Shown here piece by piece: positions 14,793-34,060 of a stretch of DNA of 35,491 bases. Source of the stretch: Deltaproteobacteria bacterium (GTDB taxonomy: Bacteria > Myxococcota_A > UBA9042 > DTJE01). The position numbers and the translations under genes were made by a program. Each line of letters starts with the position of its first letter. Position 1 is the first letter of the stretch. Under the pieces are notes generated by a model, which was not told the origin of the DNA, did no database searches, and saw nothing but the letters and a program-made list of their open reading frames with translations. The stretch lies in the NCBI GenBank assembly GCA_016784945.1, contig JADHTP010000004.1:1-35491 (forward strand). The letters run 5' to 3'.

Positions 14793-14819
14793 CGTCGGGC
14801 ACGACGAAGGAGGGTGCGG

Positions 14820-15389
14820 ATGAACGACGTAGCGACGATTCTTATCGTGGACGACGAGCAACCGGTCCTGAACGCGCTCGAACGTTCCCTGGGACTGGAC
14901 GGCCACAACATGATCAAGACCACCAGCCCCAAGCGCGCACTGGAGATCGTGGGCAGCCAGAAGGTGGACCTGATCATATCTGACCATCTCATGCCGGAAA
15001 TGAAGGGACTGGACCTTTTGCGGGAAGTGAACCGCCTTCGCCCCAAGATCATCCGGATCCTGCTGACCGGCCATGCGGACCTGGAACTGGCCATGAAGGC
15101 CATCAACGAGGGCGAGGTCTACCGGTTCTTCCAGAAACCCTGGGACGACGAGAATCTGCGACTGGACGTGCGCCTGGCCCTGTCCCACCGGAAGCTCGAG
15201 ACCGAGAATGTCCGGCTTTCCAACGAGGTGGACAAGCAGGCGGGCATCATCAACCGGCTGGAAAAGGACCATCCCGGGATCGGCAGCGTGGAGAGAACCT
15301 CCACCGGGGCCATCGTCATCGACGACGACGAACTGGACGTCAAGCATTCCAAAACCGGTGAGATCATCCTCGACGACAAGGACTTCTGA
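14820..15389 (+). CDS. Single-domain response regulator with acidic tail
   Basis: A 189-residue receiver protein. Acidic pocket residues Asp11-Asp12, phosphoacceptor Asp55 (ISDHLMPEMKG), Thr83 (LLTGHAD) and Lys106 (FFQKPWDD) are all intact. The QKPW form is common in receivers of the HD-GYP/RpfG type and of stand-alone receivers in deltaproteobacteria. After the domain comes a short coiled coil (about 123-148) and an acidic C-terminal tail with two related segments, GAIVIDDDELD and GEIILDDKDF, of unknown function. There is no DNA-binding or enzymatic output domain. The start is the ATG at 14820, six bases after GGAGG; a GTG two codons earlier is too close to that site. It is followed after 18 bp by a second receiver protein. 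Confidence 0.9.
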   Translation: MNDVATILIVDDEQPVLNALERSLGLDGHNMIKTTSPKRALEIVGSQKVDLIISDHLMPEMKGLDLLREVNRLRPKIIRILLTGHADLELAMKAINEGEVYRFFQKPWDDENLRLDVRLALSHRKLETENVRLSNEVDKQAGIINRLEKDHPGIGSVERTSTGAIVIDDDELDVKHSKTGEIILDDKDF

Positions 15390-15407
15390 CACCGATCGGA
15401 CGGAATC

Positions 15408-16223
15408 ATGACACAGGCAAGCCCCCTCCATCCAGTGGTCCTGGTGGTGGACGACGATCCGGGCTGCGTTCGCGCCATCCGACGCGCCCTGGAATACGCG
15501 GGAATGGGGACCGTGGCCGCCACCAGCCTGGAAGAGGCCCATGAGGCCCTTCAAAGGCACGACCCGGCCTGCGTGATTACGGAATTTCGCATGCCTGACG
15601 GGCAGGGGGTGGAATTCCTGACCCGGTCCCGGGAATCGGTCGAACACCTGGGGCGCGTCATGCTGACCGGGGTGGTGGACTTCCTGGCGGTACAGGAGGC
15701 CGTCAACCAGGGCTCCGTCCACGCCTTCTTCACCAAGCCCTGGGACAACAACAGCCTGGTTCAGGGCGTCAAGGGTGTCATCGAACAGTGTCGTCTCGCG
15801 CGCGAGAACACGGAAATGATGCGACAGCTGTCGGAACACAACCGGGTCCTGGAGGCCACGGTCAAGGAAAGGACGGGGCAGCTCGAACAGGCCAAGAGCG
15901 AGCTGGAAGCCGTGTTCGATTCCTGGGACGAGCCGGTGGCCATCGTGGACAACCGGTTCACGGTCCTGAGGGCCAACAAAGCCTATTCCAGGCAGGCCGG
16001 GCTGGTCGTGCGGGATGTGCCGGGCCGCCTGTGTCACGAGGCCCTGTTCCACCGGGAATCGCCCTGTGAGGACTGTCCCCTCGGGCGCGAGCCCGTTGAC
16101 GACGGCCCGCGGGAAGGCCGGATCGCGCAGGACGGGAACGAGTGGCGCATCATGACACGGTCCATGGGTATCGCCCGTCGAACCGGGCAGGCGGCGCTCT
16201 GTCGCTACGAGCTCCTGCGGTGA
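15408..16223 (+). CDS. Receiver-PAS protein with Glu at the phosphorylation site
   Basis: A 271-residue regulator. The receiver domain (about 10-125) keeps acidic residues Asp15-Asp16, Thr87 and Lys110 (FFTKPWDN), but the phosphoacceptor is replaced: ACVITEFRMPDGQG has Glu59 where the preceding gene's protein has Asp55. Glu often mimics phospho-Asp, so the domain may be locked or unregulated by phosphorylation. A coiled coil (about 130-168) leads to a PAS-like domain (about 165-271) with a Cys-rich segment, CHEALFHRESPCEDCPL, seen in a subset of PAS sensors. No kinase or DNA-binding domain follows. Its stop overlaps the GTG of the DUF167 gene. Confidence 0.88.
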   Translation: MTQASPLHPVVLVVDDDPGCVRAIRRALEYAGMGTVAATSLEEAHEALQRHDPACVITEFRMPDGQGVEFLTRSRESVEHLGRVMLTGVVDFLAVQEAVNQGSVHAFFTKPWDNNSLVQGVKGVIEQCRLARENTEMMRQLSEHNRVLEATVKERTGQLEQAKSELEAVFDSWDEPVAIVDNRFTVLRANKAYSRQAGLVVRDVPGRLCHEALFHRESPCEDCPLGREPVDDGPREGRIAQDGNEWRIMTRSMGIARRTGQAALCRYELLR

Positions 16224-16510
16224 AGGTCGTCACGGCACATCCCGAGGGCACGGTGCTGGAAATCAAGGTCCGCCCACGGGCCGGGAAATGCCGGGTGACC
16301 CATCGAAAAGACGGTACCGTTGTGGTGGAAGTCACGTCGGCGCCCGAAAACGGCCAGGCCACGAAGCAGGCGCTTCGTACCCTGGCCCGGGCCGTGGGGC
16401 TGAGGTCTTGTGACGCCACCATCTTGAAGGGCGCCAGAAACCGAAAGAAGACCGTGCTGCTCAAGGGCCTTACGAAGGGGGCCTGCCTGGCCGGACTGGA
16501 AGTTTCATGA
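16220..16510 (+). CDS. DUF167/YggU family protein
   Basis: A 96-residue protein of the UPF0235 (YggU) family, a small alpha/beta fold with no established biochemical role. Recognisable segments are IKVRPRAGK near the start, VEVTSAPENGQATKQAL in the middle and a basic ILKGARNRKKTVLLKG. The start is GTG at 16220, overlapping the preceding stop as GTGA, which gives the family's usual length. Its end overlaps the ATG of the lnt gene by four bases. In many genomes this family lies near cell-envelope or division genes, but that does not define a function. Confidence 0.85.
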   Translation: MKVVTAHPEGTVLEIKVRPRAGKCRVTHRKDGTVVVEVTSAPENGQATKQALRTLARAVGLRSCDATILKGARNRKKTVLLKGLTKGACLAGLEVS

Positions 16511-19092
16511 GCAAGGGACCGAAAAAATCCAAGGGACCCACGGAGCCGCTGACCCACATGGTGGCGGCCATTCCCCTGGCACTGGTGTCCGGGTGCCTGG
16601 TGTTCCTGTCCTTTCCCACCTATGACCTGTTTCCCCTCCAGTGGGTTGCCCTCGTTCCCCTGCTGGTGGCCGTTCGAGGACGCGGCCTGCAAAGCGGACT
16701 GTTCTTGGGTTTCTGCACGGGACTGGTCACCAATGTCGGCGGTTTCTACTGGATTTCCGGACTACTGGGGGAATTCGGCCACATGGGTCCCATCCCGTCG
16801 GTCGCGCTGATGCTGGTGGTGGCCTCCTACCAGGCCATACCCAACGCCCTGGCCACGGGACTGTCGGCCATCGTGGCCCGACGTTTCGGGCCGTCGGCTT
16901 GGTTCCTGGCCTTTCCCGTCCTGTTCACCGCCACCGAGTTCCTGGTGCCCTTCATCTTTCCCTGGTATTTCGCCAACGGTCAGCAACCCTTCCACGCCGT
17001 CACCCAGATCGTTGATATCACCGGCGTGTCCGGGCTGACCTTCCTCCTGGTTCTCGTGAACTGTGCCCTGGCCGCCGTGGTGACGCAGCGGCTGGCGAGG
17101 CAGCCCTTTCCAATCGTCCGGGTGGCCTCGGCGGCCGTCGTGCTGCTGGCATCCCTAGTCTACGGTGTGATGACCCTGCGCAGCGTGGACAGACAGGTCC
17201 GGGAAACCCGCAAGTTCCGGGTGTCCATGGTGGAAGCCGACGTGGGCATCTGGGAAAAAGAGGCCCAGCTTCCCGACGGGTCTCCCATGCCCTGGGAACA
17301 GCAGGTGCGCATGCTCTACGGCAACCTGCTTAAGCACCAGTTCCTCACGGCCGATCTGGAGCGCGAGGCGAAACCCGACCTTATCGTATGGCCCGAGTCT
17401 TCCTATAACCCGCTGCACGCGGTCTTTGCCCGGCGAACCGACGCCTTCGCCGTCACGGCCGGCGCGGGCGGCAAGGCGTCCTGGATCACCGCCCGGGGCA
17501 CCCGGCCCCTTCCGGGCGCGGACACGGCATCGCTGAGCGTCACGGGCATCCGCGGCGTGGCGGCCGCCCACGAGGAGTTCATCGTCGCGGTGGGAGCGCG
17601 TGGAGCCATCCATGTCTTCAACGGCCGGACATGGACCCGGGAACCATCGGGCACCGATCGCGACCTCTTTGCCGTGGCCGCCATTCCGGGGACCGGGGAT
17701 GCCCTGGCCGTGGGCGCCCAGGGGACGGTCGTGCTCCGCAAGGGAGGCCGCTGGGACACCCTGGAACCGGGGACCTCGGTGGACCTGAAAAGCGTCACCT
17801 GGTCGGGCGGAAGGAGCTTCGCCACCTGCGGTGACCAGGGGACACTCGTGACCCTGAAAGGCCGCCGGGCCACCTTGATCGACACGGGCACCACACAGGA
17901 CCTCCTGGCCCTGTCCTGGTCGGACCAGCGGGGATTGGTGGTCGTTGGTCGGGAAGGCTCCGCTCTCCGGGTGGAAGGCAGGCGAACCCTGAAATGGGGG
18001 ACAGGGGCCATGGTGGACTTCCTGGGCGTGGCGGCCGGAAAGGACACCTGGATCACCGGCCGAAAAGGCCTGTTATTGCGGTGTCGCGAGGAATGCGAAC
18101 GGATCAGGACGGGGCTCGACGAGGACCTCGTATCGGTTTCAGGTGACGGGGGGGGCAAGGCCTGGGCCGTGGGTGCCCGCGGGACGGTGCTGGCCCTGTC
18201 CGGCGACGCCGCGCGAAAGGTGGCTCCATTGGCGGGCCACGGTCCCCTGGGCAAACAGCGATCCGTGGCCTGGGTGCCCCTGCGCGAAGGATACCCCCTG
18301 TACCGGGACGTCCGCTATCTCTACACGTCCCCCGAACCGCTCCCCGGCGCCGGCTCCGCCGAGGATCCCGGACAGGCCGTGGACGCCGACCACGACACAC
18401 CCACCCGGGACCGGAATGCCGCCATTCGGGGATTCTCCACACCGTTGCTCATGGGGGCGATCACCTACCGGAACCTACCGGGCTTCGACAGCGAAAGCGA
18501 GTACTTCAACACGGCCCTCCTGGTGGCGCCGGACGGGGAGGTCCTGGGGCGCTACGACAAGAACTACCTGTTGATATTCGGCGAGTACCTCCCCTTCTCC
18601 GACTGGTTCCCCTTCCTGAAGACCTGGCTGCCCGAGGCCGGAGACTACCGGGCCGGCGAAACCGTGGAGGTCTTCGAACTGGACGGCGTCCGTATCGGCC
18701 TGATGATCTGCTACGAGGACATCATCCCCAGTTTCACGCGGCGCCTGGCGGACAAGGACCCCCACATCCTGGTGAACGTCACCAACGACGCCTGGTTCGG
18801 CAAGACCTCGGAACCGTATCAACACCTGCAACTGGCCACGTTCAGGGCCATCGAGAACCGCCGGTTCCTGCTGCGATCCACCAACACGGGGATCACGGCC
18901 GTTGTGGACCCCGCGGGACGCATACTCCAGCACACGTCCCTGGAGGAAGCGGAGGTCCTCACGGCGGACATCGCCGTCATGACCGGGGACACGCTGTACC
19001 GGCAACTGGGGGACGTGTTCGCCTGGGGATGCTGCGTGCTGTCTCTGCTGGGGTTGGTGGCCACCCGGTTGCGACGGGGAAAGAAGGCATGA
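16507..19092 (+). CDS. lnt: Apolipoprotein N-acyltransferase with inserted beta-propeller
   Basis: Lnt transfers the third acyl chain from phospholipid to the N-terminal Cys of lipoproteins at the periplasmic face of the inner membrane. The N-terminal membrane domain (about 17-225) and C-terminal helix (about 838-855) flank a nitrilase-type domain. The catalytic triad is present: Glu297 (WPESSY), Lys685 (RYDKNYLLIFGEY) and Cys735 (MICYED). The length, 861 residues, is far above the usual 500-550. The spacing from Glu to Lys is 388 residues, against 70 in the second Lnt of this window. The excess (about 304-593) consists of repeats of about 38 residues with a VGxxGTV core, most like a YCF48-type or related beta-propeller. 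After it, the normal Glu-Lys linker resumes (YPLYRDVRYLY onward). It overlaps the DUF167 gene by four bases. Confidence 0.93.
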   Translation: MSKGPKKSKGPTEPLTHMVAAIPLALVSGCLVFLSFPTYDLFPLQWVALVPLLVAVRGRGLQSGLFLGFCTGLVTNVGGFYWISGLLGEFGHMGPIPSVALMLVVASYQAIPNALATGLSAIVARRFGPSAWFLAFPVLFTATEFLVPFIFPWYFANGQQPFHAVTQIVDITGVSGLTFLLVLVNCALAAVVTQRLARQPFPIVRVASAAVVLLASLVYGVMTLRSVDRQVRETRKFRVSMVEADVGIWEKEAQLPDGSPMPWEQQVRMLYGNLLKHQFLTADLEREAKPDLIVWPESSYNPLHAVFARRTDAFAVTAGAGGKASWITARGTRPLPGADTASLSVTGIRGVAAAHEEFIVAVGARGAIHVFNGRTWTREPSGTDRDLFAVAAIPGTGDALAVGAQGTVVLRKGGRWDTLEPGTSVDLKSVTWSGGRSFATCGDQGTLVTLKGRRATLIDTGTTQDLLALSWSDQRGLVVVGREGSALRVEGRRTLKWGTGAMVDFLGVAAGKDTWITGRKGLLLRCREECERIRTGLDEDLVSVSGDGGGKAWAVGARGTVLALSGDAARKVAPLAGHGPLGKQRSVAWVPLREGYPLYRDVRYLYTSPEPLPGAGSAEDPGQAVDADHDTPTRDRNAAIRGFSTPLLMGAITYRNLPGFDSESEYFNTALLVAPDGEVLGRYDKNYLLIFGEYLPFSDWFPFLKTWLPEAGDYRAGETVEVFELDGVRIGLMICYEDIIPSFTRRLADKDPHILVNVTNDAWFGKTSEPYQHLQLATFRAIENRRFLLRSTNTGITAVVDPAGRILQHTSLEEAEVLTADIAVMTGDTLYRQLGDVFAWGCCVLSLLGLVATRLRRGKKA
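17440..18243 (+). repeat. Seven propeller-like repeats inside Lnt
   Basis: Residues about 312-579 contain seven units of 36-42 residues. They begin near residues 312 (weakest), 348, 384, 424, 463, 501 and 538. Six end in variants of AVGAQGTVVLRKGGRW: AVGARGAIHVFNGRTW, ATCGDQGTLVTLKGR, VVGREGSALRVEGRR, ITGRKGLLLRC and AVGARGTVLALSG. Sequence divergence between units is high, so this is an old protein repeat and not a recent DNA duplication. Confidence 0.8.
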
Positions 19093-19105: not shown

Positions 19106-20035
19106 CTAGGCGTTCTCCACCACGATGCCCGTTACCTCGCCATCGACCTGCACGCCCGGGAACACCACGGCCTCCTCGACCGCGGCGTCCGATCCGATGC
19201 GGGCGCCCTCGCACACCACGGCCCGCGGGCCCACCCTGGCGCCCGCGTCCAGGAGGGCGCCGGGACCCAGTATCACGCCGTCCGGCCCGACCCGGAACCC
19301 GTCGAGTCCCACGTCCGCATACAGTCCTGGCGCCTCTTCCAGGAGGTCCCACTGGAGGTCAAGGAAACGCCCGGGCGTGCCGATGTCGCAGAAACGGCCG
19401 TCCATCACCCGGCCGGCCACGTCCTTTCCCGAGGCGAGCAGGGGAATGATCCCGTGGGTCACAAGGCAGGATTCCACGCCGGGAGGCAGGTGCTCGAACA
19501 GGGATGGGGACAGGACCGATACCCCGGAGAACACGAACTTCGGGCCGCCGTGGCCTTCGGGTTTTCCCCGGATGCCGACCACCCGCCCCTTTTCAAGTTC
19601 CACCAACTGGGCATCGGGCCTCGCCGGGTCGTCCACCAGGGCCAGGGTGGCGTCGGCGCCTAACCGCCTGTGATGCTCCACCAGCAAGGACAGGTCCCAG
19701 TCGTGGAACACGTCGCCGTTGTGTACCAGGAACGCCTCTTCGCCAGCAAAGAAATCCCTCACCGCGCTCAGGCCGCCCCCCGTGCCCAGGATGAAGGTCT
19801 CATCCGACCAAGTGATGTTCACGCCGAGTCTGGCGCCCGAAGCCAACCGCCGCACCAGTTGGGCCGGCAGGTGATGGAGATTGATCACGACCTCGGACAC
19901 GCCCGCATTCTTGAGGCGCCTGAGGGCCCACTCCACCACGGGCGCGCCCAGTACGGGAAACAGGGGTTTCGGGACCTTTTCGGTGAAGGGCTGGAGTCGC
20001 TTGCCCAGCCCCGCTGCCAGCACCATGGCCTTCAT
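19106..20035 (-). CDS. murU: MurNAc-1-phosphate uridylyltransferase-like nucleotidyltransferase
   Basis: A 309-residue sugar nucleotidyltransferase. The N-terminal signature is LAAGLGKRLQPFTEKVPKPLFPV, the substrate loop is LGTGGGLSAV, and a metal-binding Asp108 lies in HNGDVFHD. The C-terminus has hexapeptide-like turns (GPGALLDAGARVGP). Directly upstream is an AmgK-like kinase, and the AmgK-MurU pair makes UDP-MurNAc from recycled MurNAc while bypassing de novo synthesis. Alone, the sequence could also be a mannose-1-phosphate guanylyltransferase; the neighbour decides. The start at 20035 has AAGGA at good spacing. An alternative ATG at 20050 overlaps the kinase stop as ATGA and adds five residues. 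The gene is convergent with lnt, 13 bp away. Confidence 0.8.
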   Translation of the reverse strand: MKAMVLAAGLGKRLQPFTEKVPKPLFPVLGAPVVEWALRRLKNAGVSEVVINLHHLPAQLVRRLASGARLGVNITWSDETFILGTGGGLSAVRDFFAGEEAFLVHNGDVFHDWDLSLLVEHHRRLGADATLALVDDPARPDAQLVELEKGRVVGIRGKPEGHGGPKFVFSGVSVLSPSLFEHLPPGVESCLVTHGIIPLLASGKDVAGRVMDGRFCDIGTPGRFLDLQWDLLEEAPGLYADVGLDGFRVGPDGVILGPGALLDAGARVGPRAVVCEGARIGSDAAVEEAVVFPGVQVDGEVTGIVVENA

Positions 20036-20046
20036 GCCTTGATCCT

Positions 20047-21081
20047 TCATCCGAAGTGGTCGGGGAGATATTTCGCCAGGATCTTCCGGGCAGGGGTGAA
20101 TTCGGGGAACCGTTCCAGGGCCTCCCGGGCATAGGCCAGGGACTGATCGATGTTTCCCAGGAACTTGGGATTCCCCTTCACCCGGTCGATGTACACGAAC
20201 CGTCCGGCGTCCTTGAGCTTTCTCTGGAGGGCCTGGATCTGGAACGCCTCTTTCAGTTCCTCGGCGGGAGGCACCCACAGGCCGGCGTCGGCGCGCGCCT
20301 CGCGGAAGATCTGCTGGTTCTCCGCCACCTCTTCGACGCTGAAGGTCACGTAGGAATCCCTCAGCAGGGCCACCAGGTCGTAGAGGTAGGGCCCCTGCAG
20401 GGCGTCCTGAAAATCGATGAGCCGCAAATGGTCACCCTGGACCATGAGGTTCCTGCTCTGGAAGTCGCGGTGCACGAAGCCCTGGGGCAGGCCCGTAAGC
20501 CGCTCAACCACCCCGTCATAGAAGGCGTACAGCTCATCCTTTTCCCCGGGTGTGGGCGTCAGTCCCGTCCAGGCCAGAAGGCCCCATTCGTGGAAGTGTT
20601 CCAGTTCCCAGCGCAGCAGGTCCTTCCCGAACCGTCGTTTGAACGCGATGCAGCCGGGGTCCGGATTGGACTGGGCCCAGGCCTGCATGCGGACCATGAT
20701 GTCCACGGCATCCCGATACAGAACGGCTTTTTTGCTACCGAAGGCCAGGGCCCGCTCCACGGTCATGTTGCCCAGGTCTTCCAGTACGATGATCCCGGCG
20801 TCCAGGTCCACGAAGGACACGCCGGGTACGGGCAGACCACCCCTTGCAAGGTATTCGCCCACGTCCAGGAAGGGGACGGTGTCGGGCCGTTCTCCGTCCA
20901 CCACTTCGTCGCTCTTGAGAGGATCGTCGGCCATCTTCATCACGATGGCCGTGTTCCCGTTGGGCGTGGGGGCCCGGAAGTAGGACCGGCTGGATGCGTC
21001 CCCGGCCAGGGGGGTCACGTCGGGATCGGTGCGGCCTTCGACCACGGCCAGAACCCTGGTGACGGTGTCCTTCCATTCCAT
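20047..21081 (-). CDS. amgK: N-acetylmuramate/N-acetylglucosamine kinase (AmgK-like)
   Basis: An aminoglycoside-phosphotransferase-fold kinase of about 344 residues, predicted to phosphorylate the anomeric position of MurNAc or GlcNAc. The catalytic loop is FVHRDFQSRNLMV (Asp206, Asn211) and the metal-binding motif is LIDFQDALQGPYLYD (Asp223). The N-terminal phosphate-binding segment is GDASSRSYFR. These segments match AmgK closely. The last bases overlap or abut the MurU-like gene. The start is ATG at 21081; a GTG two codons earlier is possible, and neither has a clear ribosome-binding site. It lies 116 bp downstream of the fibre gene on the same strand. Confidence 0.85.
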   Translation of the reverse strand: MEWKDTVTRVLAVVEGRTDPDVTPLAGDASSRSYFRAPTPNGNTAIVMKMADDPLKSDEVVDGERPDTVPFLDVGEYLARGGLPVPGVSFVDLDAGIIVLEDLGNMTVERALAFGSKKAVLYRDAVDIMVRMQAWAQSNPDPGCIAFKRRFGKDLLRWELEHFHEWGLLAWTGLTPTPGEKDELYAFYDGVVERLTGLPQGFVHRDFQSRNLMVQGDHLRLIDFQDALQGPYLYDLVALLRDSYVTFSVEEVAENQQIFREARADAGLWVPPAEELKEAFQIQALQRKLKDAGRFVYIDRVKGNPKFLGNIDQSLAYAREALERFPEFTPARKILAKYLPDHFG

Positions 21082-21196
21082 GGACACAGTCTACCGTCAT
21101 TGACCCGATCCGGTGAAATGGATGCAGGGAATCATTCTGGAAATGAGGCAAAACCGTTGTGATGGCGAAGGGGTCGGGTGGGGGACGGAACGCAGC

Positions 21197-24100
21197 CTAC
21201 TTGAGGATGCCTTCGTCCACCAGGAGCTGCTCGATGAGGGCGATGCGGTCCTCGAGGTCCTCGATCCGCTGGTCCCTCTGCTGGATCTGCCGGTCCAGGG
21301 TCTTGAGGCCCGCCATGAGGAGACCGTCCATGTCGTTGAGGCTGTAGCCGTGCTTGTCCACGCCGTTACCGTCCGCAGTGGCCATACCCAGTTCGTCGGG
21401 CAGGCTCTCGGCGATCACACCGATGTGAGGCACCGTGCGGTAGACCTTCCTGACGGCCAGTTCAAGGTGCTTCTCCCGCTCCCGGCCACCCACCTCTACC
21501 TCGATCCTCTTATCGATTTCCTCGCCGCTCATGGAGGTTTCTTCGTATTCCTTCCGCTTCTTGGCCTCGATCCCGCGTACTTCCTCTTCGGCTATAGCCT
21601 GGGCCGACGCGCGGTCCCGTATTTCCTCATTCATGTAGAACTTGGCGGAACGGACCTGGCGCAGGCTCGACAGAACCCACTCGTCGTCCTTGGCATCCAG
21701 GTCCTGGATGTCCTTCTTGAACTTCTCGGAGGAAATGGTGATGAATCCATAGGACTCCATCCGGTGCCATACCCGGTACTCGCGATTCCAGTGATAACCC
21801 ATCCAATAGCCGTTGTTGCTGTGCGGAATGATGTGTCCCGAATTCATCCAGGAGGTGGCCTGGTAGAAGTCCGAGCCATGAAGCCGCAGACCGTCCACAC
21901 GGCCGTAGTTGGCGTGGAAGTGGCCATGAACGTAGGCGTCATAAACACCCAGGCGACCGGTCTGTGAACCACTGCCGTCGGTCCCGTCCCAGTAGCAGCC
22001 CGTGTTGTTCCGGTCATAGAACCGGTCACCCCAGACGCTGCCGGAGGTGTAGAAGCCCGTGTTGGTCCACAGGCCGTAGGAAGAATGGGAGCCCAGGTAC
22101 CACGACGTGTTCCAGCCGCCGCCGTTGACCCGGCCGGGGTACATGTAGTTGTACTGGTACATGGAGATACCCTTCGAACCGCCGCCGAGCCAGGGGGCGA
22201 ATTGACCCAGGACCACGTTGGCATTCTTGGAAAGGTAGATGGATGATCCCATCCGCGAGTTGCCCGCCGGGTCCACGTAGTAGGTATGGTCGTTGCCGTC
22301 ATAGTACAGAGGAGCCGTCATGTAGGTCAGGCTCTGGGACCAGCCCTGGACCGACAGGTTCGGGTTCGTGCTGGAATTCTTGCGCAGGTTCAGGTTGTTG
22401 CCGCTGGGGGTGAGGTTCATGTCGTTGCCGTTCCAGCGGATCCCCTCGTTGGATTGCATGAAATACAGAGGATCACTCAGTTGCAACCTGTTGATATTCG
22501 ACGTGGAGGCCGGGTTCACGTAGTAGCCCGGATTGTCGGCATCGCGGAAGACTCTGGCGTCCAGGTTGCCGTACACCGTCATGGTGTTGCCGCCGCAACC
22601 GCCGGTGAAGACCCGAACGGGCCCGCAACGGTAGTGGTTGATCTCGAGGGGATCGCCGGCCGCACCGGTGTTGATGGTATCGAAATAGGCGTTGTTGCCG
22701 TAAAGACCATAGGAATTGCTGCCGCCGGACCGGACGGAACCGTAGTACCGGATGACGTTCATGTCGCTGGTGCCGTTCGGGTCGGCGTCCCGGGCGGTGT
22801 TGCCACGGTCCACGAACCGGTTGGCGATGACCTCGTCGGCTGTGATGTCGCCGCTGGTGGTGAAGCTGATGTTGGACGCCAGGTCGCCGCCGGCGATGGT
22901 GCCGTTGGCGATGTCGGCCGAAGAAACGGCGCCGTCCTTGATGTCCGCGCTGTCGATGCCGCCGCCGGCCTTGGTGGTCAGTTCACCCAGGAACTCCAGG
23001 TCACCCTTGTGGTAGGCCTTGCCGTTGGCGTACAGGGCGTGGGTGACACCCGTGTTGCCGGGGGCCTCGGTGTAGATTTCGAACCGTTCCGACTGGTCGT
23101 ACTCGTTGCCAAGGACCAGTTGGAAGGCGATCTGCTCGTCGGAGGCAGTGGTGTGGTTCCGGAAGTAGGCGTAGTCCTGAGAGCCGCCGTCATACAGGTG
23201 GAACTTGAAGCCAGCGTTCAGGTACAGGTCCTCGGTGCCCTTCTTGAAATACAGGGCGCCATGGTCGTGGGCCGCGGGTGACACTTGGGTGTAGTCCACA
23301 GTGACCAGGGCGTTGCCGTCCACGCTGAGGCCCGATCCGAACTTGGCCACACCCACCGCGGACGCGGTGGCCTTGTCGATCTTGGAACCCGAGATGGGGC
23401 CCGCGATCTTGACGTTCGTCACCTGCATGTTGTTGATGTCCGCGGTGTCCACGCAGCCACCGGGGCAGTTCACGTCCACGGCCGGACCACCCTTGGAACT
23501 GGAACCGGCGTAGTTGTTCTGCAGTTCGGCGTTGCCCACGCAGCCCGTACAGGTCAGGCCCGTGGCGTCGCCACCCTGGCTGGCGGAAGCCGCGTAGTTG
23601 AAGTCGATGTCGCTGTTGCCCACGCAGCCGGAGCACTGCAGGCCCGTGGCATCGCCGCCCTTGGCGGTACCGGCCGCATAGTACACGCTGCCGTGGATTT
23701 CACCTTCCACCACGCAGCCCGAGCAGGCCAGGTCGGAAGCCGCGCCGCCCTTGCTGGCCGATCCGGCGTAGTTGAAAGCCACGTCACCGGTGCCGACGCA
23801 ACCCACGCCTGCTCCGCCGAAGTTGGGGCATTCCACGTTGGTGGCCGGGCCGCCCTTGGAATTGGAAGCGGCATAGTTGAAGTCCACCTCACCGCTGCTC
23901 ACGCACTGGGAAGAGCAGGTCAGGTTGAGGGCCGCGCCGCCCTTGCTGTCCGAATCCGCGTAGTTGAAGTTGATGTCGGCGTTGCCCACGTTGCCGTCGG
24001 CAATCTTTGCCGCGGTCACCGCGTTGTTCTGGATGTGGTGGGTGCCCACCGCACCGGCGGCGCCGGTCGGGTCGTCCTTCAGCTTGTTGGAATCCACGGC

Positions 24101-24763
24101 GTCGTTGGCGATCTTGTCCGTGGTAACGGCCCCGTTGTACAGGTTCCAGGAGCCGATGGTGCTGCCCGCGATGTTGCCCACGCCGGTGAGGTTCTGGGCA
24201 CCGGTAATGGTGGTGGTGGCCACGTCGGTGTTGGCCACACATCCGTTGCAGACCAGGTCGTCGGCCGGGCCGCCCTTGGTAGCGGAACTGGCGTAATTGA
24301 CCGCCAGGTCCGCCAGGTCGATGCACCCGGACGGGTTGGCGCAATCCACGTCGGTGGCGGCACCGAGCAACTCGTCGCATTGCTCCGCGTGCTCTGCCTG
24401 GAAGGCGAAGCCAACCGAAGTGATGGCCCGTCGTGGCAGGACGTCGGTCCCGATCTGGATTTCGAGGTATACCTGCGACTTGTCAACGAATACCGTGGGC
24501 GATACCGGCCCCAGATAGACGTTGAACACGCCGCCTACCACCGATGCGGTCTTGATCTGGGTGAACAGAAGCGACCCACCGCTGGAGGCGTCGAACAGCC
24601 GGAACGTCATGCCGTAGTTTCCCGTCACGACCTCGCCGGCAACATTGCGCAACACGCCCTGCACATTCAATTGTGAGGGGACGTGATCCTGCGCGTAGGC
24701 ATCACCGACAGCCATGCCTACGACAAACACGCAGGCCAACACAAACTTGAGGAGCGACTTCAT
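21197..24763 (-). CDS. Exported fibre-like protein with S74 chaperone domain
   Basis: A 1188-residue predicted surface fibre. The start is the ATG at 24763, 12 bases after GGAGGTGG spacing included, followed by a signal peptide ending near AYAQD (about residue 25). After an N-terminal domain like those of many deltaproteobacterial tail-fibre-domain proteins come seven Cys-containing repeats (about 155-441). Four NTxYYxDPxGTS-like repeats follow (about 649-938). The C-terminus (from about 1009, SSEKFKKDIQDL) is a Peptidase_S74 intramolecular chaperone, which in phage tailspikes trimerises the fibre and then cleaves itself off. It ends in a coiled coil (IQQRDQRIEDLEDRIALIEQ). No phage structural genes are nearby, so this looks like a cell-surface protein and not prophage debris. 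Confidence 0.88.
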   Translation of the reverse strand: MKSLLKFVLACVFVVGMAVGDAYAQDHVPSQLNVQGVLRNVAGEVVTGNYGMTFRLFDASSGGSLLFTQIKTASVVGGVFNVYLGPVSPTVFVDKSQVYLEIQIGTDVLPRRAITSVGFAFQAEHAEQCDELLGAATDVDCANPSGCIDLADLAVNYASSATKGGPADDLVCNGCVANTDVATTTITGAQNLTGVGNIAGSTIGSWNLYNGAVTTDKIANDAVDSNKLKDDPTGAAGAVGTHHIQNNAVTAAKIADGNVGNADINFNYADSDSKGGAALNLTCSSQCVSSGEVDFNYAASNSKGGPATNVECPNFGGAGVGCVGTGDVAFNYAGSASKGGAASDLACSGCVVEGEIHGSVYYAAGTAKGGDATGLQCSGCVGNSDIDFNYAASASQGGDATGLTCTGCVGNAELQNNYAGSSSKGGPAVDVNCPGGCVDTADINNMQVTNVKIAGPISGSKIDKATASAVGVAKFGSGLSVDGNALVTVDYTQVSPAAHDHGALYFKKGTEDLYLNAGFKFHLYDGGSQDYAYFRNHTTASDEQIAFQLVLGNEYDQSERFEIYTEAPGNTGVTHALYANGKAYHKGDLEFLGELTTKAGGGIDSADIKDGAVSSADIANGTIAGGDLASNISFTTSGDITADEVIANRFVDRGNTARDADPNGTSDMNVIRYYGSVRSGGSNSYGLYGNNAYFDTINTGAAGDPLEINHYRCGPVRVFTGGCGGNTMTVYGNLDARVFRDADNPGYYVNPASTSNINRLQLSDPLYFMQSNEGIRWNGNDMNLTPSGNNLNLRKNSSTNPNLSVQGWSQSLTYMTAPLYYDGNDHTYYVDPAGNSRMGSSIYLSKNANVVLGQFAPWLGGGSKGISMYQYNYMYPGRVNGGGWNTSWYLGSHSSYGLWTNTGFYTSGSVWGDRFYDRNNTGCYWDGTDGSGSQTGRLGVYDAYVHGHFHANYGRVDGLRLHGSDFYQATSWMNSGHIIPHSNNGYWMGYHWNREYRVWHRMESYGFITISSEKFKKDIQDLDAKDDEWVLSSLRQVRSAKFYMNEEIRDRASAQAIAEEEVRGIEAKKRKEYEETSMSGEEIDKRIEVEVGGREREKHLELAVRKVYRTVPHIGVIAESLPDELGMATADGNGVDKHGYSLNDMDGLLMAGLKTLDRQIQQRDQRIEDLEDRIALIEQLLVDEGILK
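21950..22819 (-). repeat. Four fibre repeats of the NTxYYxDPxGTS type
   Basis: Within the fibre protein, related segments occur at residues about 649-671 (NRFVDRGNTARDADPNGTS), 738-760 (RVFRDADNPGYYVNPASTS), 819-842 (LYYDGNDHTYYVDPAGNS) and 914-938 (DRFYDRNNTGCYWDGTDG). The spacing of about 80-95 residues and the trimer-forming C-terminus suggest beta-rich shaft modules. Confidence 0.65.
23441..24301 (-). repeat. Seven Cys-containing fibre repeats
   Basis: Residues about 155-441 carry seven copies of a unit with consensus NYAxSxSKGGxAxxLxCxxCV, the last Cys being followed by an acidic D/E-I/L segment. Most copies are 28-36 residues apart; the first is separated from the second by about 110 residues. 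Each copy has two Cys, close enough for an intra-unit disulphide or a metal site. Confidence 0.75.
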
Positions 24764-24812
24764 AGGGCCACCTCCAAATACGCACCGTGGTTCCATACCT
24801 TCCCAAGACCTC

Positions 24813-24835
24813 AAAAAACGACCGCCACGCTGGCG
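24813..24835 (-). terminator. Terminator-like hairpin in the fibre gene leader
   Basis: On the minus strand, CGCCA (24835-24831) and TGGCG (24827-24823) form a five-base stem around GCG, followed after four bases by six T (24818-24813). It lies about 50 bp upstream of the fibre start codon, within the expected leader, so it could act as an attenuator. The stem is short, and chance is possible. Confidence 0.35.
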
Positions 24836-29800: not shown

Positions 29801-30979
29801 TTGAGACTGCTGGATTCAGTCCAGGAAAGTTCCATCGTGGTGGTCCTCGGCGACGGGGGCGTGGGCAAGACCACCGTGGCTTCCGCCCTCGCCATGCTGG
29901 CCGCGGCCCGGGGACGTCGGGTGCTGGCCGTCACCGTGGACCCCTCCAACCGCCTCAAGACCGCCATGGGCCTGACCGGGCGGCCCGGCGAAGAAGAGCC
30001 CGTGGATCTCGGGGGTCTTCCCGTTGCCGAAACGGGAGGCTCGCTTCATGCCATGGTCCTGGATGCCGCCACGGAGATGGACCGGTTGGTGGATCGCCTT
30101 CTCCCCACGCCGGAAGCACGTCGGCGGATCACGGACAACGTGTTCTATCGCAAGGCCGCCGCCACCATGGCGGGCACCCACGAATACATGGCCATGGAAC
30201 GGTTGCTGGAAGCCCTGGAGTCCGGGCGATACGACCTGGTGGTCCTGGACACGCCCCCGGAACGACACGCCCTGGATTTCCTGGATGCACCGGCGCGCCT
30301 CGACGGGTTGCTGTCCAGTGACGTGTTCCGCCTGTTCGTGACGGCGTCCGCGGGCCTGGGACGAATCGGACTCGGCGCCTTGCGCTGGCGTTCCGTGATC
30401 CTGAAGGGCATCAGCAAGTTCGCCGGAGAGGAGACATTTCTCGCCATCCTGGACTTCGTTCTGGCCTTCCAGCCCCTGTTCGAGGGCTTCAGACAGCGGG
30501 CGGCCCGGGTCGGTTCGTGGTTCACGGGGCCGGACTGTTCCACCCTCATCGTCTGCAGGCCGGGCCCGCAGTGCGCCCGGGAAGTGTGTTCCACCCTGAA
30601 CGCCCTGCGCGGACGGGGCATCGAACCCGCGGCAGTGGTGGCCAACCGGGTCCGGTTCTGGCCGCCTTCCGGATCCGACGCCCGGACCGCCAGGCCGGTG
30701 ACGGCCAGCACGCTCCGGAAGACGCTGGAATCGAATCCGGCGCTCAGCCTCCATGATCCGGCCACCATCGAGCGACTGGCCGCCCGCACACTGGACCTGG
30801 CGGGGAGCTACCGTGAACTGGCCAAGGAGGACCGGGGCCACATGGAGTCGCTGGCGGCCTCCACCGGGCCGGTGGCCCTGTACGAGATCCCGCTGCTCAA
30901 GGGAGAAGTGCGGGACCCCGCCACCCTCGCCCTCTTCGCCGCCGTTGTCGAACAAGCCGTTTCAGGCGATCTTGCGTAG
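29801..30979 (+). CDS. ArsA/Get3-family ATPase with altered P-loop
   Basis: A 392-residue P-loop ATPase of the ArsA/Get3 branch of the SIMIBI class. The P-loop is VVLGDGGVGKTT: Lys23 of the ordinary Walker A is present, but the signature Lys of the deviant motif (GKGGVGKT) is Asp18. Switch segments include TVDPSNRLKTAMG and VLDTPPERHALDFLD, both typical of ArsA-like proteins. It starts at TTG 29801 behind AAAGAGGG. It lies 29 bp after the mutase gene, where many genomes have a MeaB-type mutase chaperone GTPase, so a mutase-linked role is conceivable but unproven. Its last 18 bp overlap the convergent permease gene. Confidence 0.85.
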   Translation: MRLLDSVQESSIVVVLGDGGVGKTTVASALAMLAAARGRRVLAVTVDPSNRLKTAMGLTGRPGEEEPVDLGGLPVAETGGSLHAMVLDAATEMDRLVDRLLPTPEARRRITDNVFYRKAAATMAGTHEYMAMERLLEALESGRYDLVVLDTPPERHALDFLDAPARLDGLLSSDVFRLFVTASAGLGRIGLGALRWRSVILKGISKFAGEETFLAILDFVLAFQPLFEGFRQRAARVGSWFTGPDCSTLIVCRPGPQCAREVCSTLNALRGRGIEPAAVVANRVRFWPPSGSDARTARPVTASTLRKTLESNPALSLHDPATIERLAARTLDLAGSYRELAKEDRGHMESLAASTGPVALYEIPLLKGEVRDPATLALFAAVVEQAVSGDLA

Positions 30980-32398
30980 ACCGTCCACGGGATTGATGCG
31001 GATGGCCCGCAGGGAAGACAGGAGACAGGACAGCAGAACCACGAGAACCGACAGGCCGGCAATGGCGGCTATGTCCTCCCAGTGGATGATCGCGGGCAAC
31101 TCGGTGATGTGATAGACTTTCGGATCCAGGGCAAAGCCGATTTTCTGGATCAGGCGCACGATACCGTACCCCAGCACCAGCCCCACGGCCACACCGGCAC
31201 AGCCCAGGATGAACCCGTGGGTCACGAAGACCCGGTACAGCTGACGGCGGGCGGCCCCCAGGGCCACCAGCGTGGAAATCTCCTTCAGCCGCTCTCGGGC
31301 CACCACCAGCTGGGTGCCCACGATGTTGAAGGCCGCCACCACCACGATGATCAGGAAGAACAGGGCAAGGACCACCTTCTGCATCCTCAGGGCCGAAAAC
31401 AGGTTGCGGTTCATCTGTTTCCAATCGATGAGCCGGTACCGGCTGGGCGGCCCCGCACCGAGGTCGCTGTATTCCAGTCCCTTCTTGAGCCGGGACACGC
31501 CAGCAAAGAGGTCCTGCACGTGTGGTTCGCGGTCGGCGGGGGGCAGGATCCCTTCCGTGAGACGGGACGCATCGCGCCGAAGCCTGGCCGCGTCCCGCAC
31601 CAGGTCCGGGAGTGTATAGGGTTGGAGGGCGGACAGGACCTCCAGGCGCATCCGATCCGTGTCGAACAGGTCTTCGAGACGAATTTCGATCCATCGCACG
31701 GCGGGTCCCCGATTGAGGAACCGCTGTGCCGATGCCAGGTCCATCACCACCAGCCGTGAGTCGTACTCGTAGAACCCCGAATCGAAACAGTCCCTGACCA
31801 CGAAGGACTCTTCCATGGGGGCCATGCCCAGGGGACCGGCGGTGCGACCTTCGAGGCCGCGGATGGGGGTGGTCAGCGTGACACGGTCCCCGGGCGCCAC
31901 CCGCAGCCGATCGCGCAGCTCGCACCCGATCACCACCTCCATGGGGGCGCCTTCCTGAAAACGAATGGATTCCAGTGACCCGCCGTGGGTCAGGTCCCTC
32001 AGGTTGGAAACCCCGTCAATCCCGTCCAGGGCCACACCCTTGACGATGGCGCCGGCGGTGCCCGAGTCCGACGAGACCATCATCTCGTCGTAGGTGGAGG
32101 GATTGGCCCCCTGAACCCCGGGGACCCGGGACAGCCGATTGGTGACCTCCCGGTAGTCTTCGAACCGTTCACCCCTTTTCAACACCACCAGGTGGGGATA
32201 GACACCGAGGATCCGTTCGCGGAAGGCCTCCTCGAAGCCGCCGGTGACGGACAGGACCGCCGTCAACGTAGCCACCCCCACCCCGATCCCGAGGACGGAC
32301 ACCACCGTGGCCACGGACACACGAGACCGGTTCCGACCCGCGAAAAGGGTCAGGCCCATGGACCATGAAAAAGGCAGTCTCTTGAGGAGTCCTCCCAC
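30962..32398 (-). CDS. LolC/LolE-like ABC transporter permease
   Basis: A 478-residue inner-membrane permease of the MacB/FtsX type that, with a LolD ATPase, releases lipoproteins from the inner membrane to a periplasmic carrier. There is one transmembrane segment near residues 30-52, a large periplasmic domain, then three more segments near 340-470, which is the LolC/E topology. The family's cytoplasmic coupling segment KEISTLVALGAARRQL is present, and the end RAIRINPVDGLRKIA is typical of FtsX-like permeases. The start is GTG at 32398 with GGGAG before it. lolD is not in the window. It is divergent, by 48 bp, from the second lnt, which supports a lipoprotein-related role. Confidence 0.88.
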   Translation of the reverse strand: MGGLLKRLPFSWSMGLTLFAGRNRSRVSVATVVSVLGIGVGVATLTAVLSVTGGFEEAFRERILGVYPHLVVLKRGERFEDYREVTNRLSRVPGVQGANPSTYDEMMVSSDSGTAGAIVKGVALDGIDGVSNLRDLTHGGSLESIRFQEGAPMEVVIGCELRDRLRVAPGDRVTLTTPIRGLEGRTAGPLGMAPMEESFVVRDCFDSGFYEYDSRLVVMDLASAQRFLNRGPAVRWIEIRLEDLFDTDRMRLEVLSALQPYTLPDLVRDAARLRRDASRLTEGILPPADREPHVQDLFAGVSRLKKGLEYSDLGAGPPSRYRLIDWKQMNRNLFSALRMQKVVLALFFLIIVVVAAFNIVGTQLVVARERLKEISTLVALGAARRQLYRVFVTHGFILGCAGVAVGLVLGYGIVRLIQKIGFALDPKVYHITELPAIIHWEDIAAIAGLSVLVVLLSCLLSSLRAIRINPVDGLRKIA

Positions 32399-32476
32399 CA
32401 GCTCTCCCGGATGATCGGGGGTCGCAACGAAGAATACTATTGACTATTGGCGCAGGACTGTCGACCATTTTCACCC

Positions 32477-34060
32477 GTGAGCACTCAATCGAAACTCCGG
32501 TCGGGGCCCTGGTGGAAAGTGCTGCTTTGTGCCCTGGCCACCGCCGCGATGCTCGTGGCGATCCTTCCGGACCACGGCCTCTGGTACCTGACGCCGGTGG
32601 CCCTCATTCCCCTGTTCTTCGTGCTCCCGGACCTGTCCTGCGGCAGGGGATTTCTGGCCGGGTGGCTGGCGGGGACCCTGGCCAACATGGGCATCTTCCA
32701 CTGGATCGTCCATACCGCCGTCACCATGAGCGAGTTTCCCTTTGCCCTGGCCTTGCTGGTTCTGCTGGCCTTTGCCATGTACTCCGGCCTTCCGTTCGGA
32801 TTGCTGGCCCTGGTGGGCCGCTCCCTGCTCAAACGACGGGGGGCCGTGTGGACCGTGCCGGCGGCCCTGGTGACCCTGGAATTCCTGTGGCCCAACCTCT
32901 TTCCCTGGCACCTCGGCAACGCCTACTTCCGGGTGCCCCTGCTGATGCAGGGAATGGACCTGACGGGAATCTACGGAGGCTCGTTCGTCTCGACCGCGGT
33001 GGCCGTGGCGGCGGCCACCTGGCTCCGCGGACGCAACCGAGGGGACCGGGTGCCCCTTTCCGTGCCGGTAGCGGCCGCGATCCTGGTGGCGGCCTGGACG
33101 GGCTACGGCGCCATCCGGCTCCAGACCCTGGACAGGGGCGAATCGGCCCCCACGCTGACCCTGGCCCTGGTGCAACCCGACATCACCGCCGAAGACAAGA
33201 AGCGCCGCGATGGCAAGAGCCGGAAGGCCCTGTTCGCCAGGTTGAAGGGGCTCACGGAATCGGCGGACCTGGAAGGTGTGGATGCGGTGGTCTGGCCCGA
33301 AGGGGCCTTTTCCTTCTATTTCGCCCCGGATTCGGAAGGACGGAAGGGCTGGACGAACATCGTTCAGACGTCCCGTCGCCTGGTGGCCATGGTAAGGGAC
33401 CTGGAAAAGCCCCTGGTGTTCGGATCCCTGACGCGCCCGCTGAACTCGCGCACCCGCAACTCGCTGGTCATGCTGGGTTCCGACGGACGGGAAGTGGAGC
33501 GCTACGACAAACGGGTCCTGCTGGCCTTCGGCGAGTACATGCCCCTGTCGGACACATTCCCGTTCCTCAAGAAGAAGGTCAAGGAAGTGTCGGACATGGT
33601 GGGAGGGGACCGGGCGGTTTCCTTTCCCGTGGGTCCCGGCCGGGCCCTGGGTTCCATCTGCTACGAGGCCATCTTCCCCACGCTCACCCGCCAGTCCCTG
33701 ATCGAGACCGGATCCAATCTCATCCTGAACGTGACCAACGACGCCTGGTTCGGCACCAGCGGTGCTCCGGCGCAGCATCTCATGGTCCAGGCCCCCCGGA
33801 CCGTGGAACTGCGGGTTCCCCTCGTCCGACTCACTGAGACGGGGATCTCCGCCGTGATCGGGCCATCGGGCGAGTTCGCCTACGAAACGGAACTGCACGA
33901 AAGACGGGTGGACCGGGTGGTCATTCCCATGGTGGACGGATCGAGCGTCTACCGGGAGGTGGGGGACGTTTTCGCGTGGGCCTGCGTGGCGCTGGTGATC
34001 GCGTCCCTGGCCACGGGCTACTTCAGGAGGAAGAAGTCCCTTTCCACCAGGATCGGATAG
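32477..34060 (+). CDS. lnt: Apolipoprotein N-acyltransferase, second copy
   Basis: A conventional-length Lnt (527 residues from GTG 32477). The membrane domain spans about 15-215. The catalytic triad is Glu275 (WPEGAF), Lys345 (RYDKRVLLAFGEYMP) and Cys395 (SICYEAIF). The Glu-Lys spacing is 70 residues, as in ordinary Lnt, with no insertion. A TTG at 32447 would add ten residues; neither start has a good ribosome-binding site. It is divergent from the LolC/E-like permease, which acts at the next step of lipoprotein handling. Its last 43 bp overlap the convergent small membrane protein gene. The propeller-bearing Lnt lies 13 kb upstream, so this may be the housekeeping copy. Confidence 0.94.
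   Translation: MSTQSKLRSGPWWKVLLCALATAAMLVAILPDHGLWYLTPVALIPLFFVLPDLSCGRGFLAGWLAGTLANMGIFHWIVHTAVTMSEFPFALALLVLLAFAMYSGLPFGLLALVGRSLLKRRGAVWTVPAALVTLEFLWPNLFPWHLGNAYFRVPLLMQGMDLTGIYGGSFVSTAVAVAAATWLRGRNRGDRVPLSVPVAAAILVAAWTGYGAIRLQTLDRGESAPTLTLALVQPDITAEDKKRRDGKSRKALFARLKGLTESADLEGVDAVVWPEGAFSFYFAPDSEGRKGWTNIVQTSRRLVAMVRDLEKPLVFGSLTRPLNSRTRNSLVMLGSDGREVERYDKRVLLAFGEYMPLSDTFPFLKKKVKEVSDMVGGDRAVSFPVGPGRALGSICYEAIFPTLTRQSLIETGSNLILNVTNDAWFGTSGAPAQHLMVQAPRTVELRVPLVRLTETGISAVIGPSGEFAYETELHERRVDRVVIPMVDGSSVYREVGDVFAWACVALVIASLATGYFRRKKSLSTRIG

Follow-up and report, generated by a model that had tools for sequence, protein, structure and literature searches.

The DNA analysed here, hereafter the window, is a stretch of 35,491 nt from a Deltaproteobacteria bacterium (GCA_016784945.1, contig JADHTP010000004.1, positions 1-35,491, forward strand; GTDB lineage Bacteria; Myxococcota_A; UBA9042; DTJE01), whose genome is available as a draft of 2.73 Mb in 247 contigs and is 68% complete. 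A single uninterrupted open reading frame (ORF) in the window encodes a protein of 861 residues, which is an intact apolipoprotein N-acyltransferase (Lnt) that bears an inserted domain, and which we call propeller-Lnt after the predicted fold of the insert. The gene, its parts and the surrounding genes are the following.

14814..16223, + strand: two response-regulator genes, upstream, kept in loci L039, L040 and L042
16220..16510, + strand: DUF167/YggU gene, directly upstream of propeller-Lnt
16507..19092, + strand: propeller-Lnt, 861 aa
16558..17205, + strand: membrane domain, residues 18-233 (Pfam LNT_N at 28-187, AlphaFold2)
17212..17415, + strand: nitrilase domain part 1, residues 236-303 (alignment, AlphaFold2)
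17395-17397, + strand: codon of the catalytic Glu297
17425..18273, + strand: inserted seven-bladed beta-propeller, residues 307-589 (AlphaFold2, Foldseek)
18082..18096, + strand: CX3C pair Cys526/Cys530 in the propeller
18274..18426, + strand: conserved linker 3' of the propeller, residues 590-640, PLPRDVxxxYxSxxPLP...RNA (alignment)
18427..18996, + strand: nitrilase domain part 2, residues 641-830 (alignment, Pfam, AlphaFold2)
18559-18561, + strand: codon of Lys685
18709-18711, + strand: codon of Cys735
19106..21087, - strand: MurU-like nucleotidyltransferase and AmgK-like kinase genes, convergent with propeller-Lnt
21197-24814, - strand: gene of a protein of 1205 residues, no Pfam match
30962..32398, - strand: LolC/LolE-like lipoprotein-releasing permease (TIGR02212 lolCE, 257.8 bits, below the cut-off of 362)
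32447..34060, + strand: ordinary second Lnt, 537 aa from the listed TTG, with 70 residues between Glu and Lys

The identity of the 861-residue protein is supported by several comparisons. It scores 255.8 bits against TIGR00546 (lnt), for which the cut-off is 132.9, and both LNT_N (residues 28-187) and CN_hydrolase (residues 656-823) of Pfam are matched above their gathering scores. Alignment with the E. coli enzyme equates Glu297, Lys685 and Cys735 with E267, K335 and C387, respectively, so that a full Lnt with its catalytic triad in one frame, as had been read from the letters in an initial annotation of this DNA, is confirmed by profile, domain and alignment evidence alike. The triad is kept in all aligned members of the group, with or without the propeller, and Glu693, Tyr736 and Glu737 are likewise invariant in our alignment A2. 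What sets the protein apart is the distance between Glu and Lys, i.e. 388 residues compared with 68 in E. coli Lnt and 61-82 in most of the ordinary Myxococcota Lnts compared. The insert of ~283 residues (307-589) starts ~6 residues past the catalytic Glu and is followed by the conserved linker, which is partly retained in propeller-less members as well; Lnt sequence is back at residue ~641.

The whole protein was modelled by AlphaFold2 with a mean pLDDT of 92.9 and a pTM of 0.92, using an alignment of 42 sequences. In the model the insert consists of six complete four-stranded blades (residues 348-571) and one composite blade (residues 313-334 with 584-589); the composite blade closes the ring in the way usual for propellers, and it places both termini of the insert side by side, a requirement for a domain lodged within another. 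The same propeller strands were obtained when the insert was modelled separately (pLDDT 92.8), and both the predicted strand pattern and the Foldseek matches point to a closed ring of seven four-stranded blades. When the insert sequence is compared with itself, similarity is highest at a shift of 39 residues, where BLOSUM62 scores average -0.13; the best of 200 shuffles reached -0.34. The initial annotation had proposed a propeller of seven repeats at about residues 304-593; the number of blades, their approximate extent and the period are borne out, a closed ring is predicted, and its picture of repeats in tandem needs correction, as the blades are six contiguous ones and one composite rather than seven contiguous ones.

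The Lnt fold is predicted to be kept around the insertion. The top Foldseek matches of the full model are solved Lnt structures, aligned over the whole chain with TM-scores of 0.71-0.81 normalised by target, and this overall match to all solved Lnts indicates a nitrilase fold on top of a membrane domain of eight helices. The model superposes on E. coli Lnt with a TM-score of ~0.8 of the solved chain. The orientation of the domains was judged from the overall confidence of the model; from this and the fold match, the triad is predicted to be still assembled around the insert. For the insert, the best Foldseek match is a designed seven-bladed propeller (TM-score 0.75 of query), and the nearest natural bacterial propeller by fold is Ycf48 (TM-scores 0.57-0.58), chains of which type are also picked up by the sequence profile of the insert. 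Pfam, including PSII_BNR (PF14870), gave no match to the insert of the window protein up to an E-value of 0.5, and only two of 22 relatives match PSII_BNR; similarly, WD40 (PF00400) is not matched by the window protein and is matched by only 2/22 relatives.

The propeller has a mean identity of 25%, compared with 39% for the membrane domain and 52-54% for the two nitrilase segments. The faster divergence of the propeller could reflect a binding surface that tracks its partners, a passive spacer or a tolerated passenger. No conserved ligand site was found in the propeller beyond structural Gly residues and the repeat motifs. Each of the nine A2 sequences from family f1 with a whole propeller has the CX3C pair, and the sister-family sequence L040 carries two Cys residues at a wider spacing; such a pair is consistent with a disulphide in an oxidising, non-cytoplasmic compartment.

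Full-length propeller-Lnt with the insert at the same site was found in 41 of the 52 class genomes; four further ones have the gene split over contigs. The relatives are uncultured Myxococcota, Myxococcales and Deltaproteobacteria assemblies, some of which bear species labels that are clearly wrong. In G006 the propeller is shortened in frame to about four blades (L042 on G006:C107, Glu-Lys distance 280), through either a real deletion or a draft error; G009 and G016 have long Lnts without the propeller only, so the propeller is dispensable in some lineages, and the remaining genomes of the class yielded fragments or blanks. Outside the class, propeller-Lnt was found in none of ~327 genomes (phylum sample of 379 genomes, E-value 1e-40). 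The architecture is a feature of almost the whole class and not a peculiarity of one genome. The recurrence at one site in related genomes that the initial annotation had proposed to look for is seen throughout the class, and its view of the locus as a domain insertion instead of a misassembly is upheld by these separately assembled genomes. It had also been aware of no described Lnt of this type, and no description was found in the papers that we searched; the architecture may already be present, without comment, in subscription journals or domain databases. In the same phylum sample, ~16 fairly complete genomes of family f19 gave no LNT_N match, so that this family may lack Lnt or have a strongly diverged one.

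The history of the insertion was studied on trees of the Lnt core from which the insert had been removed. In these, the class's ordinary second Lnts split from the long-Lnt clade with an SH-aLRT support of 99 (100/100 with fewer rows). Within that clade, the propeller-less sequences L028 and L062 of genus g3 are nested beside a propeller-bearing protein with a support of 100/100, which implies that the propeller was secondarily lost in this genus. The presence of the propeller requires at least four changes on the careful tree, in which the deep long-Lnt branches are weak and the rooting paralogue is a long branch; the pattern may reflect one gain followed by several losses, or more than one gain.

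The propeller is not the only insert in the Glu-Lys loop. A separate Lnt lineage (L080, L084, L085, L103 and L109) keeps the triad and carries ~130 extra residues in this loop, in which neither propeller repeats nor a Pfam match were found. This unrelated insert at the same loop in another lineage marks the Glu-Lys loop as an insertion hot spot. Moderately long loops are present in L069, L071, L075 and L081, which, like the L080-type lineage, lie near the long-Lnt clade on the tree. An extension elsewhere in the enzyme was also observed, i.e. an Lnt at L108:5398-7926 with ~330 additional C-terminal residues, a part in which no Pfam match was obtained. As to the origin of the propeller, two adjoining genes of the source genome, L161 and L162 (G000:C51), encode large propeller proteins with the same repeat type as the insert, and the N-terminus of L162 has a signal peptide and an LTAC lipobox. 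Free-standing proteins of this kind are a likely donor type. One may even speculate that the inserted domain derives from a lipoprotein, i.e. from a client of Lnt.

The second, ordinary Lnt in the window, on which the initial annotation of propeller-Lnt is silent, has counterparts in 40 of the 52 class genomes, and a LolC/LolE-like gene is divergent from it, which places genes of lipoprotein maturation and release side by side. In three draft genomes propeller-Lnt is the only Lnt found, namely G013 (96% complete), G028 (90%) and G027 (87%); the same holds for G020 (94%), whose draft sequence has a stop codon within the gene. Since no other Lnt was found in at least three genomes that are fairly complete, the propeller form is probably a working enzyme, active as an N-acyltransferase. 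G003 encodes two Lnts of the same type, one with and one without the propeller; in the draft genomes of genus g3, to which it belongs, an ordinary Lnt paralogue was not found; the pair in G003 looks as if one of each type were wanted.

Other steps of the pathway were also surveyed. The source genome has two Lgt genes (G000:C172:777-1556 and G000:C167:32534-33439), and at least two are present in most of the class. One Lgt type, which in several genomes is a neighbour of LspA, is longer by ~50 residues around profile position 70. A duplication of the whole pathway was considered and rejected, as only one LspA was found in the source genome beside the two Lgts and at least two Lnts are common in the phylum.

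The immediate neighbourhood is partly conserved. The ATG of propeller-Lnt lies on the stop codon of the DUF167 gene (ATGA overlap), and this gene accompanies propeller-Lnt in the sister family (L040) and in those family f1 loci that extend to this point; the two genes are likely co-transcribed. The MurU-like and AmgK-like genes are near propeller-Lnt in several related loci. Proteins similar to the 1205-residue product are encoded near propeller-Lnt in L038, L039 and L043.

We consider it rather probable that propeller-Lnt is an active Lnt in which an early-inserted, Ycf48-like propeller serves as a periplasmic protein-binding adaptor beside the active site; enzyme activity, periplasmic placement, adaptor role and division of labour are what we infer from the comparisons above. 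A Ycf48-like propeller would have entered the loop leaving the strand of the catalytic Glu, early in one class of Myxococcota. Acyl transfer would proceed by the normal ping-pong reaction of Lnt through Glu, Lys and Cys, with the acyl-thioester formed on Cys735. As the nitrilase domain of E. coli Lnt is periplasmic (PMC5500890), the inserted propeller should be periplasmic too, and it would stand by the funnel that the mobile arms form at the active site. There it might keep certain lipoprotein clients as a class, or else a partner of the Lgt, LspA or Lol type, close to the active site, and the remaining lipoproteins would be processed by the ordinary second Lnt. Propellers are common binding platforms. 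A more specific form of the proposal, in which N-acylation is split between the two Lnts and the propeller picks the lipoproteins that receive the third acyl chain, is possible but on balance doubtful; if true, no earlier Lnt would have had a domain for client selection.

A role in regulation instead of recruitment, in which the propeller gates the active-site funnel, e.g. upon ligand binding, would suit the position of the insert, as it departs ~6 residues after the catalytic Glu, among the mobile arms that surround the entrance (PMC5500888). However, the core is predicted in the normal Lnt fold, propeller-less members share the same linker, and the propeller lacks a conserved ligand-site signature besides its structural Gly and repeat motifs, so we regard gating as unlikely. 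We give the same weight to a neutral or nearly neutral insertion, in which the loop simply tolerates domains and the propeller, structurally harmless, has been inherited as a passive passenger. The rapid divergence of the propeller, its secondary loss in one genus, its partial deletion in G006 (L042) and the unrelated insert at the same loop in the other Lnt lineage are all as expected of a passenger; yet the whole propeller is retained in ~11 families of the class with regular blades and, in nearly all cases, without stop codons, and the CX3C pair is conserved in family f1.

It is far less probable that the propeller form has given up acyl transfer and is a membrane-anchored binder only, leaving all the chemistry to the ordinary Lnt. 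Such a loss could be accommodated by the 40 of 52 genomes that keep an ordinary second Lnt, but not easily by the genomes in which the propeller form is the only one found, nor by the triad and the invariant Lnt residues, which are complete in all members. Finally, the fragmented state of the draft and the GC content of the insert (0.70, compared with 0.63-0.64 in the flanks) might raise the suspicion of a chimeric assembly or a gene-fusion artefact; the identical junctions in dozens of separate assemblies refute it and leave it a negligible chance.

How full-length lipoproteins enter and leave the active site of Lnt, and whether the enzyme discriminates among its clients, has been little explored, as work has centred on the enzymes of E. 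coli and Pseudomonas. An entire bacterial class that keeps a folded domain of a protein-binding kind beside the catalytic Glu bears on this question, and its propeller-less relatives are ready-made natural controls. In addition, the Glu-Lys loop takes whole domains with the triad retained, which makes it a useful site for reporters or tags.

Among known propellers, that of propeller-Lnt is most readily compared with Ycf48/HCF136 (PDB 2XBG, 5OJR and 8AM5), with which it shares seven blades and repeats of the VGxxGxV type, and which it matches significantly by profile and by fold. Newly synthesised D1 is bound by Ycf48 (PMC10403576). Unlike Ycf48/HCF136, the Lnt propeller is embedded in a membrane enzyme and is not free, and the likeness does not imply photosystem II. 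The free-standing proteins L161 and L162 have the same repeat type as the insert, at roughly 24-34% identity, and differ from propeller-Lnt in being without an Lnt part. Among known Lnts, the active-site entrance of the solved enzyme is funnel-shaped and lined by loops called arms (PMC5500888); the loop that received the propeller, between the Glu strand and helix 2, is by our reading arm 5, given as beta1-alpha2 in a legend of that paper. Like the Lnts of E. coli (5N6H) and P. aeruginosa (5N6M), propeller-Lnt combines a membrane and a nitrilase domain, and it shares with them the triad and the invariant residues nearby; unlike them, it carries a propeller of ~283 residues and a longer linker between the catalytic Glu and Lys.
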